A DNA stretch of 64,000 nt from contig NZ_JAEKIW010000001.1 of assembly GCF_016757965.1 (NCBI RefSeq), positions 62,001 to 126,000 on the forward strand. Direction: 5' to 3'. Of this stretch, positions 56,329 through 64,000 are shown in pieces. The first letter of the stretch is position 1. Every line of letters starts with the position of its first letter. Source of the DNA: Archaeoglobus neptunius (GTDB lineage: Archaea > Halobacteriota > Archaeoglobi > Archaeoglobales > Archaeoglobaceae). The translations under genes and the position numbers were made by a program. The notes below the pieces were generated by a model. That model saw only the letters and a program-made list of their open reading frames with translations. It did not search any database and was not told where the DNA came from.

Positions 56329-56392
56329 GAGCTTATATTAACCTTTTGCTTTTTCCCTTTCTGTTCACCTCAACTGGAGCGGTTAACGTTAA
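56329..56392 (-). promoter_or_regulatory. dsrOPMKJ promoter region with upstream GGTTAACGTTAA element
   Basis: On the minus strand a TATA-like GGTTAATATAAG (about 56329-56341) precedes dsrO by about 70-80 nt. The expected start near 56308 leaves a leader of about 45 nt with GGAGG. About 45 bp upstream of the TATA lies GGTTAACGTTAA (56381-56392), holding the perfect palindrome TTAACGTTAA. The same 12-mer occurs upstream of the acyl-CoA ligase gene at 61991-62002. The upstream position suits an activator or a shared regulator. Confidence 0.5.
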
Positions 56393-56418
56393 TCTACGTC
56401 CCGTTTCTAACTTAAAAA

Positions 56419-57360
56419 TTATGATAAATATTGATCAGCCTGCCTGTTATGCCGTTTCAGTCTAACCCTATCCCACAATCCCATCAGCCCGCTGGGAAAC
56501 AATACTATCACCGCTATCAAAATCAGCCCATACACGATCATATGCCCGTAAGTTATCGTAACTCTGAGCTGTTCTTCCATAACTCTGAGTATCGCTGCTC
56601 CGAGAACTGGGCCGAAAGTTGTACCCATTCCTCCAAAGACCGCCATTGCGAGAACTGCAAGTGCTATCCCGACGTTAAACGCTATCTCAGGATTTACGAA
56701 TGCAATATAGTGGACGTAAAAAGCTCCCATCAAACCCGGAAATATTGATGAAATCGTGAAGATTAGCAATATCGTTTTTGTTACATTAATCCCAACTGTC
56801 CTTGCCACAATCTCATTGCTCGCCATGACCTTCATGGCATAATACAACCTCGACCTGTTCAGCAGTGCTGATGTTACCACAGTAACAATGGCAATTGTCA
56901 GAGCGAGAATGTAGGCGGCATACATATTCCCGCCAAATATGGGTTCATCGAGAGTTATTCCTCCCGCCCCTCCCGTGTAATCGCTGAGCTGTAGAATGGC
57001 TATGTGCATAAAGCCCGCAAAAGCCAAGGTTGCAATGGCGAAGTACATTCCTCTGAGCCTGAGTGTGGCCAAACCGAGGCAGAACGCTGCCATTCCCGAA
57101 CTCAACCCACCTGCTATTATTCCGATTAGCGGATCAAAGCCTTTCATATACAGCAATACCGACACATACGCTCCAATTCCAAAGAATGCATGATGGGCAA
57201 AGGAAATCTGCCCGGTTCTCGCCAGAATGTCCCAGCTCAAAGCCAGAGAGGCGTATATGAATATAAGCACGAGAAGATCGAGGTAGTAGGTTGAGGTGAG
57301 GATGAATGGGAATACCAAAAGAAGGCCAACCAGTATTATTGACACTACAGCACTCCTCAT
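56419..57360 (-). CDS. livM: Branched-chain amino acid-type ABC transporter permease LivM
   Basis: The 313-residue protein has eight to ten membrane segments and LivM signatures: LVLIFIYASLALSWDILARTG (with break), QISFAHHAFFGIGAYVS, LRLRGMYFAIATLAFAGFM and the EAA-type loop VMASNEIVARTVGINV. It ends with a LPSGLMGLWDRVR-like tail. It pairs with LivH (4-bp overlap). No LivF/LivG ATPase or LivK binding protein is in the window, so these must come from elsewhere. The neighbours suggest a carboxylic acid or acyl substrate, which is inference. Confidence 0.88.
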   Translation of the reverse strand: MRSAVVSIILVGLLLVFPFILTSTYYLDLLVLIFIYASLALSWDILARTGQISFAHHAFFGIGAYVSVLLYMKGFDPLIGIIAGGLSSGMAAFCLGLATLRLRGMYFAIATLAFAGFMHIAILQLSDYTGGAGGITLDEPIFGGNMYAAYILALTIAIVTVVTSALLNRSRLYYAMKVMASNEIVARTVGINVTKTILLIFTISSIFPGLMGAFYVHYIAFVNPEIAFNVGIALAVLAMAVFGGMGTTFGPVLGAAILRVMEEQLRVTITYGHMIVYGLILIAVIVLFPSGLMGLWDRVRLKRHNRQADQYLS

Positions 57361-58217
57361 ATTACTTCCCCCGTTCTGAAAGACCTGTAGATTAAAACAA
57401 GCATGATTATGGCGAAGAAGACGGCATCAGCCCATCCCGGACCGAAATACCCTTTGACAAATGATTCACTCAGACCCAGCAGTAGAGATGCCCATATCAC
57501 CCCATACAGGTTGCCCAAGCCTGCCACAACGATTATGCAGAACGCCTTCAGAGTTAAGATGTCACCAACATAGGGAGTTATGTACCCGACCAAAAGCCAG
57601 AAAACTCCTGCAAAAGATCCGAGAGCTATTGACACTCCGAACGTGACGAGATAAACTCTGTTTACATCTATCCCCACCAATGCGGCCCCTTTCGGATTTT
57701 GACTGACAGCCCTTATCGATTTACCCATGCTCGTCTTTGTCAGAAAGAGATGAAGGAAGAGGCAGACAGAGAAGGCGACGAGCAGAATTGCGGCAGACAA
57801 CGAGCCGATCTGAGCGATGCCGAGGGAGAGGGATATTGCCTGATAACCAGTTGAGACGAACCTGACGTTTGATGACCAGAAAAGCTCCATCAAGCTTGAG
57901 AGAACGACGGCAATGCCGAAAGTCAGGATTAGCTGGTTGATGTGTGGTGCATCGAGCACGTGCTTCACAACTCCCCGATATACCAAAGCACCGAGAACGA
58001 ATCCGGTTGGAACCGTCACGAGTAAAGATGCCAGTGGATCCAGCCCGTAGATTCTCCAGAACCAGTAGGTCAGGTAAGTTGTAAAAATAAGTAGGTTACC
58101 GTGAGAGATGTTGAGTATCCCGAGAACGCCAACACTCAGGGCTAAGCCAAGAGCGACCATGATGTAGATTCCCGAATTGACAAGACCGTTAACCAGTATT
58201 TGAGCAAAGAATTCCAC
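57357..58217 (-). CDS. livH: Branched-chain amino acid-type ABC transporter permease LivH
   Basis: The 286-residue protein has LivH features: LVNGLVNSGIYIMVALGLAL, LSVGVLGILNISHGNLLIF, a conserved RAVSQNPKGAALVGIDVNRV loop that contacts the ATPase, and a GLGNLYGVIWASLLLG C-terminal segment. GTG 58217 was chosen over the in-frame ATG at 58241 because a GAAGGTGAT site lies 3-11 nt ahead and the longer frame would start inside the upstream gene. Confidence 0.88.
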   Translation of the reverse strand: MEFFAQILVNGLVNSGIYIMVALGLALSVGVLGILNISHGNLLIFTTYLTYWFWRIYGLDPLASLLVTVPTGFVLGALVYRGVVKHVLDAPHINQLILTFGIAVVLSSLMELFWSSNVRFVSTGYQAISLSLGIAQIGSLSAAILLVAFSVCLFLHLFLTKTSMGKSIRAVSQNPKGAALVGIDVNRVYLVTFGVSIALGSFAGVFWLLVGYITPYVGDILTLKAFCIIVVAGLGNLYGVIWASLLLGLSESFVKGYFGPGWADAVFFAIIMLVLIYRSFRTGEVI

Positions 58218-58221
58218 GCGA

Positions 58222-58794
58222 TCACCTTCTGGTTTTTTCAAGAAGCCAGTACACGTTCTCTGCGAAATGTTTGACGATCATTATACCCTCCTCATCGTTG
58301 GCAGCATCTCTCGCTCCCTTAGCTCCCGCAACCATCACATTCCAGTAAATCGACCCCGGCACTATGAAATCGTTTATAAAGAACCACGAAAGCAGTTGGG
58401 TGAAGGCTGTGTTATGTCCCGCCCTTCTTGCCACAGTTATTGGACCACCAATCTTTCTCGAAAAAGTCCCTTTCCGGAAGGTTGAGAACCCCGCTCTTAC
58501 AAGCAGAGACCAGAGTGTCGGATGAGCATAGCCGTAATGCACCGGAGAAGCGGCGATTATAGCGTCAGCCTCGACCATCTTGCCAAAGACTTCCTTGAAA
58601 TCATCCCCACTCTGAACGCACTCTCCCCTATCCCAGCACTTGTAGCAAGCCCTGCACGGATTTATTTTTTTGTTCCGCAACAGTACCATCTCCACTTCGC
58701 ACCCCTTCTCTTCGAGATGGTCAAGAGCAACCTTAACAAAGTATTCCGTGTTGGAATCACTTCTCGGACTTCCGACCAATCCCAAAACCTTCAT
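58222..58794 (-). CDS. Iron-sulfur flavoprotein/NAD(P)H-dependent FMN reductase
   Basis: The 190-residue protein has a flavodoxin-like start KVLGLVGSPRSDSNTEYF and the compact cluster CRACYKCWDRGEC that binds [4Fe-4S] in archaeal iron-sulfur flavoproteins. ASPVHYGYAHPTL forms the flavin side. Such proteins transfer electrons from ferredoxin to small oxidants or substrates. GGGTGAA precedes its ATG. It sits between the NHL protein and livH. Confidence 0.86.
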   Translation of the reverse strand: MKVLGLVGSPRSDSNTEYFVKVALDHLEEKGCEVEMVLLRNKKINPCRACYKCWDRGECVQSGDDFKEVFGKMVEADAIIAASPVHYGYAHPTLWSLLVRAGFSTFRKGTFSRKIGGPITVARRAGHNTAFTQLLSWFFINDFIVPGSIYWNVMVAGAKGARDAANDEEGIMIVKHFAENVYWLLEKTRR

Positions 58795-58798
58795 GAAT

Positions 58799-59329
58799 TC
58801 ACCCCGCAGGAGCGAACACCTGAATCCGATTTAAAAGTCCGTCTGCAACATATAAATAACCTGACGAGTTTATTCCGATCCCCATCGGGCTGAAGAAGTT
58901 ACCGGGTGTGGCACTGAACCTGCCAAACTCGCAGATGAAATCGCCGTTGTTCGTGAACTTCTGGATGCGGTTGTTTGCGGCATCGGTTACGATTATACTA
59001 CCGGCACCATCAACCTCGACTCCGAAAGGTAGGTCGAACTTACCGGGAGACGATCCAAGCTCACCAAATTTGTTTAGAGCCGAGCCCTGAGCTGACAGCT
59101 TTACGATCCTGCAGTTCCCCATATCTGAAACGTAAATATTACCCCAGCTATCTTTTGCGATACCAACGGGTGATGAAAAATATAACTTACCATCTTCAGG
59201 AATTACACCCCACGTATCCACGTGAACGTAACTGCTTGCAAAAGCTTTGGCTGCAGGCATTTTACCAAAAAGCCAGAAGCTGATGACGGTTAAAGAGGTT
59301 TTCAGCAGATCTCTCCTCAATACACGCAC
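58799..59329 (-). CDS. Exported NHL-repeat protein, short form
   Basis: The 176-residue protein begins with a twin-arginine-type signal (VLRRDLLKTSLTVISFWLFG). Three NHL repeats follow with the characteristic G-I-x-x-D-x-x-G-x-IYV-x-D-x-x-N-x-R pattern: PVGIAKDSWGNIYVSDMGN, VEVDGAGSIIVTDAANN and IGINSSGYLYVADGLLN. A normal NHL propeller has five or six blades, so this one is too short to close alone and may form a dimer or bind another protein. The start is GTG 59329 with GGGGGTGAC ahead. There is no sign of a frameshift at the end. Confidence 0.8.
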   Translation of the reverse strand: MRVLRRDLLKTSLTVISFWLFGKMPAAKAFASSYVHVDTWGVIPEDGKLYFSSPVGIAKDSWGNIYVSDMGNCRIVKLSAQGSALNKFGELGSSPGKFDLPFGVEVDGAGSIIVTDAANNRIQKFTNNGDFICEFGRFSATPGNFFSPMGIGINSSGYLYVADGLLNRIQVFAPAG

Positions 59330-59333
59330 ATTG

Positions 59334-60365
59334 TCACCCCCATTTTATGGCCGTAGCTCCCCAGCTGAAACCCGTTCCAGCTCCAACAGCGACTACCAAG
59401 CTACCATTTTTGACTTTACCCTGCTTCACACCCAGATCCAGTGATAGAACCCAGTCTGTTGATTGAAGATGGCCATACTCGTCCAGACTTGAGGAGTGCT
59501 GCATTTCGTTGAGGCCAAGCTCGCTGAGAATCTGTCTCCTGAATGAGGGTATTAGATGTAGCAAAGCCACGTAGTCTATGTCCTCATCCGTATATCCGCT
59601 TTTCCTTACAGACTCTCTGATTACTCTAACAAAATTTGCTTTGGAAAGGTCTCTGAAATCCCTGTAACCTTTTCTCGGCTTGCTCATCTTCTCCCTGTGG
59701 CTGCTTGCAACACCGATGTACCGCATCTTTTCTTTTGGCAGCTCACTCAAAATGCCCTTCGATCCCGAATTGTTGTAAACGTGGTTGTAGTAACCGTCTG
59801 TGACGAAAAAGCCTGAAAGGACTCTGTTTTTCCTGTATCCCTTTTTCAGCCACACAGCACTCGCCCCATCTGCAAAATCCCACATAAAGCTGGTATCCCT
59901 ATCTCTGTAATCAATCAGATAGGATTCCTTCGTACCGGAAACTACCAGTGCATTTTCCCATTCATCGTCACTCAAAAGAAGAGTTTTCACCTGATATAGG
60001 GCTAAAGGGCCGGCAAAACAGAGGGCATGGAGATCATAACACCAAGCGTTCTCAGCTCCTATTCTGTGCTGTATCTCCGGAGCTACCGGCCATACATAGT
60101 AGTCCGTGAACTGACTTCCATTGTAAACGATTATGTCGATATCGAGCGGATCGAGCGAGGTTTTATCGATGAGCATCTTAGCAGCTTTAACACACATATC
60201 CGAAACATGCTCATCGGGGGCAGAGATGCACTTTCTTATTATTCCGAACTTTTCTTTCAACACTTTTGCATCGATTCCGTGGATAATTGTTTCCTTCGCA
60301 ATATCCTCTGCCGTAACGAAATTATCCGGAATGTATATCGCCCAATCAACTATGCCTACTGACAA
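59334..60365 (-). CDS. KAS III-like condensing or acyl-transfer enzyme with Cys-His-His active site
   Basis: The 343-residue protein has the thiolase-fold layout of 3-oxoacyl-ACP synthase III: YIPDNFVTAEDIAKE at the start, LHALCFAGPLALYQ with the nucleophile Cys, YVALLHLIPSF with the His, and a C-terminal VVAVGAGTGFSWGATAI that closes the site. The third catalytic residue, Asn of YGN in true KAS III, is His here (DEYGHLQSTDW; codon CAT). This change occurs in a KAS III-like subfamily of acyl-transfer enzymes. Next to an acyl-CoA ligase, it may condense or transfer the acyl group that the ligase activates. Confidence 0.78.
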   Translation of the reverse strand: MSVGIVDWAIYIPDNFVTAEDIAKETIIHGIDAKVLKEKFGIIRKCISAPDEHVSDMCVKAAKMLIDKTSLDPLDIDIIVYNGSQFTDYYVWPVAPEIQHRIGAENAWCYDLHALCFAGPLALYQVKTLLLSDDEWENALVVSGTKESYLIDYRDRDTSFMWDFADGASAVWLKKGYRKNRVLSGFFVTDGYYNHVYNNSGSKGILSELPKEKMRYIGVASSHREKMSKPRKGYRDFRDLSKANFVRVIRESVRKSGYTDEDIDYVALLHLIPSFRRQILSELGLNEMQHSSSLDEYGHLQSTDWVLSLDLGVKQGKVKNGSLVVAVGAGTGFSWGATAIKWG

Positions 60366-60369
60366 AAAC

Positions 60370-61935
60370 TTACACCTCCTCGTAGAGTTCCTTTACTCTT
60401 CTCTTGTCTATCTTACCGGTTTCAGCCTTAGGTAGTTCATCAACTATCACGACCTTTCTTGGCTTTTTGAACGAACCCAGTATTTTTGCAACGTGCTCCT
60501 GTATCTCCTCTGGTGTCAGTGATTCACCCCTCTTAGGAACCACTATGGCCTTCGGCGTTTGCCCCCATACCTCATGTTTACCCCTCACAACAACAACATC
60601 GGCAACCTTGGGGTGGGAATAGATCGCCTTTTCGATTTCGGCAGGGTATATGTTCTCCCCACCGCTTATTATCATGTCATCCACCCTTCCCATTACGTAG
60701 ATGTACCCCTCCTCATCTATCATCCCGATATCTCCCGTGAAAATCCACCCATCCTTGAACTTCTTTTTCTCGTCTTCCGGCCTGTTCCAGTACCCAACAG
60801 CTCCTGTTGGCTCCTGTCTCACAACGATCTCTCCAATCTTCCCTCTCTCAACCTCATTGCCGCTCTCATCCACAATTTTAACCTCAACAAACGGTGGTGG
60901 TAATCCAACACACTCGCTGCCCTTCTCAAGAATTGGATGGTCTGCTCCAACTGCAGGACCGCAAACACCCGTCGCACCGGTCTCTGTAAGCCCGTAACCG
61001 CCCAAGTACTTTATACCCAGCCTGATGAACGCTTCCCTCAACTCTCTGGGTTGAGGTTCTCCCCCTCCGCAAACCGCTCTCAGTGATTGAACATAGTTTT
61101 CCCATCCCTCAACCTGAATCATCATTTTGAACTGCGTGGCTATGCCAAAGAGAAACGTTACACCGTATTTTTTGATGATCTCAAGCGACTCCTTCGCCTC
61201 CCACCTATCTTTCAGCACAGTCGTGCCCTGAAACATCAGTGTGGAAAGCTGAAAACAGGTTATGCCTCCGGCATGAAACATTGGTGGAGCGCCATAATAA
61301 ACGTCATCTGGAGTTAGTTCGGCTGCCATGTGATTTGCCAAAGATGCAAAGAATATGCTCCGGTGTGTATGCTTTACACCTTTCGGTCTGCCGGTTGTAC
61401 CTGCTGTAAAAAGTATCATGCTCAAATCATCGGGTTCTGTTGAAATTTCCGGTTCCTCATCCGAACTGGCTTTTATCAATTCGTAAAAGCTTTCAGCTTC
61501 GAGCTTAACCTTCTCCGACACTTCGATGAGCTGAATGCTCTTTGGCCTGATCCTCTCAATCTTGTCGCTGAAAGCTGCGTCGTATATCAGAACTTTTGGC
61601 CGAGCATCGTTAATGAGAAATTCAATTTCACTGTCGGAAAGTCTGAAGTTCGCTGGTGTGTACACAGCATCTATTTTCAGACATGCGAGGATTGTTTCAA
61701 GGGTCTCTATCCCATTCTGCATCAGGACAAATACTCTATCTCCTTTCTCCACATAGTCTAACAGGGCGTTTGCCAGCTTGTTAGTTTCTAAATTCAGCTC
61801 TTTGTAAGTAAACGATCTCTCCTTTCCGGCATCTATCACGGCTGTTTTATCCGGCACAACTTCAGCATTTCTGGCAATCACCTTGGAGACATTATACACT
61901 GAACCGTTTGCAGGATACGCACTTCTCAATTTCAC
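60370..61935 (-). CDS. Acyl-CoA ligase (AMP-forming), FadD-like
   Basis: The 521-residue enzyme carries the AMP-binding signature LFTAGTTGRPKGVKHTHR, YGLTETGATGVCG, FTGDIGMIDEEGYIYVMGR and the C-terminal catalytic lysine PKAETGKIDKRRV, a complete adenylate-forming fold. It activates a carboxylic acid to its CoA thioester. The chain length cannot be read from sequence. GTG 61935 with GGTGGTGGAT ahead is the likely start; TTG 61947 is an alternative. It leads the cluster ligase-KAS III-like-NHL-ISF-livH-livM. Confidence 0.87.
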   Translation of the reverse strand: MKLRSAYPANGSVYNVSKVIARNAEVVPDKTAVIDAGKERSFTYKELNLETNKLANALLDYVEKGDRVFVLMQNGIETLETILACLKIDAVYTPANFRLSDSEIEFLINDARPKVLIYDAAFSDKIERIRPKSIQLIEVSEKVKLEAESFYELIKASSDEEPEISTEPDDLSMILFTAGTTGRPKGVKHTHRSIFFASLANHMAAELTPDDVYYGAPPMFHAGGITCFQLSTLMFQGTTVLKDRWEAKESLEIIKKYGVTFLFGIATQFKMMIQVEGWENYVQSLRAVCGGGEPQPRELREAFIRLGIKYLGGYGLTETGATGVCGPAVGADHPILEKGSECVGLPPPFVEVKIVDESGNEVERGKIGEIVVRQEPTGAVGYWNRPEDEKKKFKDGWIFTGDIGMIDEEGYIYVMGRVDDMIISGGENIYPAEIEKAIYSHPKVADVVVVRGKHEVWGQTPKAIVVPKRGESLTPEEIQEHVAKILGSFKKPRKVVIVDELPKAETGKIDKRRVKELYEEV

Positions 61936-61967
61936 ATCCACCACCAATTCTGGAAAATTTATGATGA

Positions 61968-62002
61968 CATTATAAAACGTAAAGTTAACAGGTTAACGTT
62001 AA
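61968..62002 (-). promoter_or_regulatory. Promoter of the acyl-CoA/Liv cluster with GGTTAACGTTAA element
   Basis: The minus-strand TATA TTTTATAATG (about 61968-61978) lies about 26 nt before the expected start near 61947. Directly upstream are GTTAAC (61984-61989) and GGTTAACGTTAA (61991-62002), which holds the palindrome TTAACGTTAA. The 12-mer is identical to the one upstream of dsrO. The element abuts the TATA region, so a bound protein could control entry of transcription factors. Confidence 0.55.
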
Positions 62003-62037: not shown

Positions 62038-62688
62038 ATGCGAGGCAAATGTTACATCTGCAACAAAACGTTCAGCAAGGCTGGAATGGTGAAACATATG
62101 AAAACGCACCTGAAGAATAATGGAGATACAAGGCTTTTCCACGTCGTGGTTGATGGATTGTATCAGCCAGAGTACTGGCTTCACATCGAAATTCCCGCAG
62201 ATGCCAAGTTTAAAGACCTTGATAAGTTCTTAAGAGAGATATGGCTTGAATGCTGCGGGCATTTGAGTGCTTTCGAAATTGACGGTGTCAACTATCATTC
62301 CAAGTACTTTGATTTTGATCTGGACCCATCAGCGAGAGATACGGATATACCGCTGAGCAGAGTTCTAAGCGTGGGAATGGAGTTCTACCACATCTACGAC
62401 TTTGGTTCTTCAACGGAGCTGAGGCTCAGGATTGTAGGAGAGAGAATGGGCAAAACTGAGGAGAAAGTCAGGATTCCTGCAAGGAACGAACCGCCCGACA
62501 TAAGATGCAGTTGTGGTAAAAAGGCGAGATGGATCTGCATGCAGTGTTTTGTTGATAATCTGGGGGAGAACTGCTATTTCTGCGATGGATGTGCAAAAGA
62601 GCACGAATGCGGCGAAGATATGCTTTTACCGGTGGTTAACTCACCAAGATGCGGTGTTTGTGGGTATGAAGGTGGTAAATACGATTGA
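62038..62688 (+). CDS. pRiA4b ORF-3-like domain protein with N-terminal C2H2 and C-terminal zinc fingers
   Basis: The 216-residue protein starts with a C2H2-type finger (CYICNKTFSKAGMVKHMKTH). A pRiA4b ORF-3-like domain follows (about 30-150, with LYQPEYWLHIEIPADAKFKD, LDKFLREIWLECCGHLSAF and FYHIYDFGSSTELRLRI). A cysteine-rich tail with at least four CxxC pairs (CSCGKKARWICMQC, CYFCDGC and CGVCGYE) completes it. pRiA4b-type proteins are common near plasmid and mobile DNA; their function is unknown. The ATG lies about 26 nt after AATTAAAAAC, so it is leaderless. The next gene is a broken integrase. Confidence 0.83.
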   Translation: MRGKCYICNKTFSKAGMVKHMKTHLKNNGDTRLFHVVVDGLYQPEYWLHIEIPADAKFKDLDKFLREIWLECCGHLSAFEIDGVNYHSKYFDFDLDPSARDTDIPLSRVLSVGMEFYHIYDFGSSTELRLRIVGERMGKTEEKVRIPARNEPPDIRCSCGKKARWICMQCFVDNLGENCYFCDGCAKEHECGEDMLLPVVNSPRCGVCGYEGGKYD

Positions 62689-62699
62689 AAGGGTAAAAT

Positions 62700-63542
62700 G
62701 ATAAAGTTTGGCTTTACGAGCTGAAGAAAGAACTTGTGACAAGGAAATATAGCAGGAGAACGGTAAAGTTCTACCTGCATTACAATGAAGAATTTTTGAA
62801 GTTCTACAATAAAAGCCCATACCAGGTATCAAATGAAGATGTGAGGGATTACCTGTATTATCTGGCAGAGAAGAAGAACTGTTCGGCTTCAACTCTGAAC
62901 ATAGCAATAAATGCACTGAAGTTTTACTACGGCGAGGTGCTGAAGCGGAGATTTGCTTACAGCATCAGAAGGCCAAAGAAGGACAAAAGATTGCCTGTTG
63001 TTTTAGGTCAGGAGGAGGTTTCGATGATTTTGTCATCGATTACCAACATCAAGCAGAGGCTGATTTTAATGTTCATGTATTCCGCTGGGTTGAGAGTTGG
63101 AGAGGTTGTAAGGCTCAGGATTGAAGATGTTGATGTGAAGAGAAAATTGATCAGGGTAAGGGGTGGAAAGGGAAGAAAAGATCGCTATACAATTCTTTCC
63201 GAAGTTGCGATGGAAACTTTCAAGAATATATTGAAAGATGCAGGCCGGAAAAATGGCTTTTTCCGGGGCAGAGAAGAGATAAAAACATATCAACCAGAAC
63301 GGTTCAGGCAATCTTTGAAAAAGCAAAGGATAGGGCTGGAATAAAGAAGGACGCTACCGTTCACTCTTTATGACATTCATTCGCCACCCATCTGCTCGAA
63401 AGTGGATTTGAGATGCATTCAGGAGTTGCTTGGACACAAAAGCTCAAAAACGACAGAGATTTATACTCATGTAGCAATGAAAGATTTGAGGAGGATAAGA
63501 AGTCCACTGGATATGCTGGGAGGTGATAGAGGGAATGGTTGA
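62700..63542 (+). pseudogene. Broken XerC/D-type tyrosine recombinase (integrase)
   Basis: Three segments in shifted frames reconstruct a recombinase of about 280 residues. Frame one holds the SAM-like N-terminal domain (KYSRRTVKFYLHYNEEF) and MYSAGLRVGEVVRLRIEDV with the first catalytic Arg. A frameshift near 63280 moves to the frame reading STRTVQAIFEKAKDRAGI and ATVHSL. A TGA at 63371-63373 replaces the Arg of the HxLRH motif. A second frameshift near 63404 leads to [20 protein letters not shown], with the final His and the catalytic Tyr, ending at 63542. No start codon precedes the first segment in frame except GTG 62736. The gene is inactive. Confidence 0.85.
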
Positions 63543-63543
63543 A

Positions 63544-63626
63544 AAGTTCGTATATCCTGCCGAAAAGGAGATAGTATGAAATTCACATATCTTCCCAAAT
63601 TAGACCAAAAAGCGAAGTTCGTATAT
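63544..63626 (+). repeat. Pair of direct repeats AAGTTCGTATAT flanking about 60 bp
   Basis: The 12-mer AAGTTCGTATAT occurs at 63544-63555 and 63615-63626, just after the broken integrase. It may mark old attachment or regulatory sites. The rest of the stretch 63543-63712 holds no gene. Confidence 0.4.
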
Positions 63627-63712
63627 ACTAAGTTCAACGAAATGCTCGCTCCGGCGCCTAGATAGAATGATTTAAAAACATGAAAATAACTCATTAATTG
63701 AGGAAACTAACC

Positions 63713-64000
63713 ATGATGAAAAAGGCTGTGGTTTGGGATCCGGTAATGAGATCTTCAGCAAGAAAATATGACCCTTGTATACAGATAGAAAAAGGTAGGT
63801 GTAAAATAAAGTGCGAAGATTGTAAAATAACCCTTATTGCAGATAGATTTCTAGGTGAAGAATTTCAGAGAGAAATTTTAGGAAAACTTGGTAAAAGCAA
63901 AGGAAGATACCCATATGTGATAATCGTTGATACTCTTGGCTGTAATTTAAGGTGCTGGTTCTGCTATGCGTACAAATTTTTTGATAAAAGATCTGCGGAA
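63713..64000 (+). CDS. Radical SAM protein, N-terminal part (runs past the window end)
   Basis: The frame from ATG 63713 (or 63716) stays open for 96 codons to the last base. Residues 80-90 read TLGCNLRCWFCYAYKFF, the CxxxCxxC site that holds the radical SAM [4Fe-4S] cluster. Before it lies an unusual 75-residue leader with four cysteines (YDPCIQIEKGRCKIKCEDCK), which may bind another cluster or zinc. The start of most radical SAM proteins has the CxxxCxxC within the first 30-60 residues, so this leader is longer than average. A GAGGA site lies about 10 nt upstream. Codon use is richer in AGA, ATA and TTA than in the housekeeping genes. The reaction cannot be inferred from this part. Confidence 0.82.
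   Translation, partial: MMKKAVVWDPVMRSSARKYDPCIQIEKGRCKIKCEDCKITLIADRFLGEEFQREILGKLGKSKGRYPYVIIVDTLGCNLRCWFCYAYKFFDKRSAE

Follow-up and report, generated by a model that had tools for sequence, protein, structure and literature searches.

A probable acquired regulon for organic-acid uptake and CoA activation, split into two divergent arms, in Archaeoglobus neptunius

We analysed a 64,000-nt stretch of the Archaeoglobus neptunius genome (2,115,826 bases in 32 contigs), comprising positions 62001-126000 of contig NZ_JAEKIW010000001.1 (C1) and hereafter called the window. Near its end, a run of six genes encodes an acyl-coenzyme A (CoA) ligase, a KAS III-like enzyme, a short NHL protein, a flavoprotein and the permeases LivH and LivM. 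Our results suggest, with a probability of about 0.65, that these genes belong to an acquired regulon with two divergently transcribed arms, of which they form one, and that it serves the uptake and CoA activation of an organic acid. Positions without prefix refer to the window, and those past its end were extrapolated by subtracting 62000 from the C1 coordinate.

All six open reading frames (ORFs) lie on the minus strand, and profile searches confirmed the families that the initial annotation had assigned to them. The run opens with the AMP-forming ligase (60370-61947; PF00501 1e-80, PF13193 3e-22; TTG start), followed by the KAS III-like enzyme (59334-60365; ACP_syn_III and ACP_syn_III_C), a 176-aa NHL protein with a twin-arginine-like leader (58799-59329), an FMN_red flavoprotein (58222-58794; PF03358 3e-24), LivH (57357-58241) and LivM (56419-57360), the last two matching PF02653 (BPD_transp_2). 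The first three intergenic gaps are of 4 nt each and the ORFs of LivH and LivM overlap by 4 nt; the flavoprotein and LivH ORFs overlap by 20 nt if LivH starts at TTG, and an alternative GTG at about 58217 abolishes this overlap.

The initial annotation had described the six genes as lacking ATPases and a binding protein, which is true only within the run itself; LivHM are not orphan permeases. Searching the same genome for Liv ATPases and binding proteins revealed, 2.8 kb past the end of the window, a Liv set devoid of its own permeases and composed of LivK, LivG, LivF (C1:128755-131485) and an alpha/beta hydrolase, all on the plus strand (C1:128755-132310). LivK is a lipoprotein of 417 aa with a lipobox, and its start at C1:128755 is 4.8 kb from that of the ligase, on the opposite strand. 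Convergent to the hydrolase side lies the gene of a Bat-like regulator (C1:132299-133015, minus strand), so that the whole second arm spans C1:128755-133015 (extrapolated 66755-71015); its product scored 44.0 bits with the C-terminal HTH_10 domain (PF04967, gathering threshold 23.1) and 32.7 with HVO_2525_N (threshold 27). With LivK as binding protein, LivHM as permeases and LivGF as ATPases, the two arms together make up, as judged by protein families, a complete LivKGFHM set of the LIV/HAAT type; the genome contains four other Liv sets, all located elsewhere.

Both arms also share a putative operator. In the 2.1-Mb genome, the core AACGTTAACnnGTTAACTT has just two perfect matches, one preceding the ligase and the other preceding LivK; leaving aside the reverse-strand readings of these two sites, all remaining matches contain three mismatches. 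Upstream of the ligase, the operator reads AACGTTAACCTGTTAACTT (61982-62000, minus strand) and contains the inverted repeat GTTAAC-N2-GTTAAC, with its twin AACGTTAACTGGTTAACTT found upstream of LivK (C1:128700-128718, plus strand, past the window end). The upstream stretches of these genes are identical at 26 of 30 bases, a value that none of 300 dinucleotide-preserving shuffles attained. Additionally, the TATA-like sequence TTTTATAA is found about 30 nt 5' of the TTG start of the ligase (61970-61977, minus strand) and 32 nt 5' of the ATG of LivK, a matching spacing. Its closeness to the start codons suggests short-leader or leaderless messages. Within each arm, the genes are probably co-transcribed. 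A related element, GGTTAACGTTAATC, is present at 56381-56394, upstream of dsrO, and a similar one, ATTAACATTAACC, occurs in another genome of the genus (G003).

The HTH_10 protein is most likely what recognizes the putative operators of both arms. Homologues of this regulator (42-52% identity) occur in five other Archaeoglobaceae genomes (G017, G021, G019, G008 and G003), always beside an operon for a sodium (SSS) symporter, and in 5/5 of them a GTTAAC-N2-GTTAAC-like palindrome with 0-1 mismatches is located upstream of the symporter operon. Such a palindrome appeared in only 1/2000 shuffled 300-nt symporter-upstream stretches. The five genomes are mutually related and do not represent independent events, and the spacing from the palindrome to the TATA-like box is poorer in G003. 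The operon of G017 continues with genes for two class III CoA-transferases and an acyl-CoA dehydrogenase; this content, together with the linkage to symporters, indicates that this family of regulators accompanies transport and, in G017 at least, CoA activation. We also considered that the inverted operator copies were the ends of a transposon, which is disfavoured because the motif stands alone before the symporter operons of the relatives.

Alignment of intergenic DNA placed both arms at a single insertion site, inside one 14.6-kb block (about C1:118430-133058) between etfA and dsrO; from the junction alignment, one edge of this island falls in the last codons of LivM, at about 56429. In three genomes of the same genus (G006, G007 and G003), dsrO directly follows etfA, and upstream of these lie etfB, HADH, a thiolase gene and the gene for a DUF35-like protein; the corresponding etf-HADH genes of A. 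neptunius begin at C1:133261. The best explanation is that the island was horizontally acquired.

None of seven other Archaeoglobus genomes, some of them incomplete, contains the KAS III-like gene. The gene order, which none of these seven genomes shows, is thus not a trait of the Archaeoglobales. The left arm occurs once more on contig DMAW01000104.1 (L045, 1-6863), binned as Eubacteriaceae (metagenome-assembled genome UBA12179). This contig contains the end of a KAS III-like gene, an NHL remnant and the genes for the flavoprotein, LivH (92% identical) and LivM, with identities of 80-92%. It looks like misbinned Archaeoglobus DNA, and hence a second occurrence at another site, because a search of 21 genomes matched its non-coding DNA to Archaeoglobus only, at 82% over 321 bp in G006. 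We therefore dropped a recent bacterial origin of the island, also because the window protein forms, in a tree of KAS III-like proteins, a deep branch beside a haloarchaeal clade (support 91/87). The remainder of the contig (L045:3437-6863) encodes a PAPS-reductase-domain protein with ferredoxin motifs and then a DUF6079-type ATPase, recalling parts of a BREX-like defence locus.

The arms are separated by cargo on the plus strand (62038-64000, continuing past the window) with a G+C content of 0.376, as compared with 0.473 and 0.442 for the arms. It includes a PRiA4-ORF3-like gene, a XerC-like integrase gene with an internal stop and a frame-shifted C-terminal part (62736 to about 63540), an ORF whose CX3CX2C motif is radical-SAM-like and which matches EVE below threshold (from 63698 onward, past the window) and, past the window, a ParE-like gene with no obvious partner. 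The integrase remnant probably represents a decayed mobile element.

Among the enzymes, the ligase shows AMP-binding and AMP-binding_C domains over its full length, and its closest solved relatives are fatty-acyl-CoA and feruloyl-CoA synthetases, FadD13 and malonyl-CoA synthetase; it reached none of its 25 best NCBIfam cut-offs. The flavoprotein combines its FMN_red domain with a CX2CX2CX4C motif, read from the sequence; iron-sulfur flavoproteins (Isf) are defined by an FMN_red domain plus a compact CX2CX2CX4-7C motif. The NHL protein, which the initial annotation took for an outward-facing component, is probably a decaying fragment: it matches only positions 147-274 of the 376 in the ScyF profile, about half of a ScyF-type protein, a search of other members of the family returned no homologue of it at E<=1e-10, and its gene is down to about 52 codons in L045.

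The KAS III-like enzyme scored 337.5 bits with NF005308/PRK06840, a family of 3-oxoacyl-acyl carrier protein (ACP) synthases with a curated equivalog cut-off of 315. Alignment with FabH-type sequences highlighted residues Cys116, His270, His299 and Asp304. The column of the FabH Asn is occupied by His299 in 31/31 family sequences, with Cys116 kept; Asp304 replaces a Ser of FabH, and His270 is shifted by one column from the FabH His, in the PHQAN region. The enzyme thus departs from the Cys-His-Asn triad typical of KAS III, with KAS I/II having Cys-His-His (PMC4549310). Its AlphaFold2 model (pLDDT 83.7, pTM 0.85) shows the FabH fold, with residues 194-210 and 220-230 poorly modelled. Low-scoring matches in other Archaeoglobaceae (L007-L010) were rejected as FabH-like genes in other contexts. 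We tentatively propose that PRK06840-type proteins could be a separate class of the KAS III fold, with a Cys-His-His site, carrying out carbon-carbon cleavage or formation on an imported, CoA-activated acid, in an undescribed pathway of haloarchaea, Bacillaceae and Archaeoglobus; we hold this proposal with less than even confidence.

Judging from gene content and order, the cluster is conserved in other lineages. The KAS III-like family was found in Bacillaceae and relatives and in 20/392 other genomes of the phylum (E<=1e-30). LivK-G-F-H and the KAS III-like gene are collinear in 13 of the 15 loci that we read, the regulator being visible in 12 and a ligase in 9 over the length covered; we take these loci as haloarchaeal because the plasmid matches from the same search were all haloarchaeal. 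Annotated haloarchaeal plasmids contain genes for MaoC, an alpha/beta hydrolase, an AMP-binding protein, an HTH protein, LivKGFHM and a 3-oxoacyl-ACP synthase, and the order in Bacillaceae is LivK-G-F-H-M, KAS III-like enzyme, hydrolase, short-chain dehydrogenase/reductase (SDR) and ligase. Fredinandcohnia-type operons include a second KAS III-like copy whose active-site column lacks the Cys (Ser-Ser-Cys shift; L036:53-1045, L037:4005-4997 and L039:3968-4954), perhaps a partner subunit. On a plasmid of Halomicrococcus gelatinilyticus (L147:7232-15005), the LivKGFHM-KAS III-like operon directly follows a tryptophanase gene, a possible hint of substrate. Within the Archaeoglobaceae, other Liv sets (L138-L145) adjoin genes for acyl-CoA ligases or CaiB/BaiF-type CoA-transferases, some with an acyl-CoA-dehydrogenase-like neighbour, and association of Liv sets with CoA-activating genes may be a general theme of acid uptake in this family.

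We infer the substrate class, the direction of transport and the order of steps in the following scheme. LivK would capture the acid outside the cell, and LivH and LivM, with the ATPases LivG and LivF, would import it for conversion to a CoA thioester by the ligase. The KAS III-like enzyme, with its Cys-His-His-type site, would then act on this thioester in a Claisen-type carbon-carbon reaction, with cleavage somewhat more likely than condensation. The alpha/beta hydrolase would assist, as would, in this anaerobe, the putative iron-sulfur flavoprotein. The HTH_10 regulator would switch both arms together by binding the GTTAAC-N2-GTTAAC copy that directly precedes the TATA box in each arm, and the AT-rich mobile segment with the broken integrase would have come between the two promoters later. 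The scheme fits the use of fatty acids by A. neptunius (PMC8322695) and the location of Archaeoglobaceae Liv sets beside ligases or CoA-transferases. The uptake and activation of a carboxylate put forward in the initial annotation gained support from the full set of LivKGFHM genes, from the operator common to both arms and from the conservation of the cluster in other lineages, but nothing points specifically to a branched or an aromatic substrate.

Several observations weigh against this regulon. The operator is a prediction from sequence, and part of the island is decaying, as the NHL fragment and the broken integrase attest. The nearest solved structures to LivK are generic amino-acid or amide binders, which give no clue to the substrate. 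LivG and LivF are of the archaeal kind and not of that in the haloarchaeal and Bacillaceae clusters, and a transporter of a different lineage may have joined the same enzymes; a common LivH/M clade was neither rejected (p 0.22 and 0.29) nor demonstrated. Additionally, the island contains no SDR or MaoC gene. It is quite unlikely, however, that the arms are two unrelated neighbouring groups, with orphan LivHM served in trans by other Liv sets and LivKGF-hydrolase as a separate remnant. The four further Liv sets in the genome would allow it, and the right-arm LivG/F/K group weakly with ordinary archaeal sets; yet the halves are exactly complementary, sit in one etfA-dsrO insertion, carry matching operators unique to their promoters and correspond to collinear clusters elsewhere.

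A biosynthetic, OleABCD-type cluster that condenses acyl-CoAs and receives a precursor through the ATP-binding cassette (ABC) system would agree with the usual condensing activity of the FabH fold and with the Bacillaceae version, where genes for a KAS III-like enzyme, an alpha/beta hydrolase, an AMP-ligase and an SDR accompany LivKGFHM. We consider it unlikely, because the KAS III-like protein matched 52 PDB sequences at E<=0.001, none of them OleA, the Bacillaceae SDR is a classical FabG-like enzyme of 245 aa, whereas OleD is an extended SDR, and the A. neptunius island has no SDR, so that neither an OleA-like enzyme nor OleD was recognized; a dedicated binding-protein importer also suits catabolism better. 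Placement of all five transporter subunits in LIV/HAAT families could likewise point to an ordinary importer of branched-chain amino acids beside unrelated metabolic genes. This is very unlikely, since no subunit reaches the LIV or urea equivalog cut-offs of NCBIfam, the ligase and the KAS III-like enzyme are constant companions across phyla, and the operator is common to both arms. Finally, the NHL fragment, the frame-shifted integrase and the partnerless ParE-like gene would be expected of a foreign island that has decayed and no longer functions; we regard this as the least probable account, because none of the ORFs for transporter subunits and enzymes is interrupted, Walker A is present in the ATPases and the expected motifs in the ligase, KAS III-like enzyme and hydrolase, the left arm retains 80-92% protein identity in L045, and both operators are intact.

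Under the proposed regulon for acid uptake and activation, what looked like a loose run of genes becomes a defined unit of an archaeal sulfate reducer, for which a candidate regulator and operator can be named; these two, like the binding protein, offer direct handles on the substrate. The cluster is widespread in haloarchaea, Bacillaceae and Archaeoglobus, yet only generically annotated, and the active site of its KAS III-like enzyme is unusual. An ABC importer coupled to CoA activation is a system of a known kind; a search of open-licence papers for PRK06840 or for the cluster returned nothing relevant, and the variant with this KAS III-like member is undescribed in that literature.

As compared with FabH, the KAS III-like enzyme retains the fold (TM-score about 0.81-0.84) and the position of the active-site Cys, but differs in the residues detailed above and in its location outside any fatty-acid synthesis operon. 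The haloarchaeal clusters, as in Salarchaeum sp. JOR-1 (pJOR178) and a plasmid of Halobaculum salinum, have in common with the island the KAS III-like family, ligase, alpha/beta hydrolase, HTH_10-type regulator and complete Liv set. However, they are collinear instead of split and divergent, the strict palindrome was not found in them by sequence search, their LivG/F are of another type, and they include SDR, MaoC or SCPx companions absent from the island, which alone has the putative iron-sulfur flavoprotein and the NHL fragment. Operons of Fredinandcohnia, Neobacillus and Pontibacillus (Bacillaceae) likewise share the KAS III-like enzyme (34-40% identity), ligase (about 31-34%), hydrolase and Liv set. 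Conversely, they contain an SDR and, in some cases, the Cys-less second copy, their Liv subunits are distantly related, and no HTH_10 regulator was seen in them, a MalT/LuxR-like or TetR-like gene being nearby. The HTH_10-linked symporter operons of the Archaeoglobaceae share the homologous regulator and the palindromic operator but lack a KAS III-like gene, with a sodium symporter and, in G017, the two CoA-transferases in place of the ABC importer and ligase.

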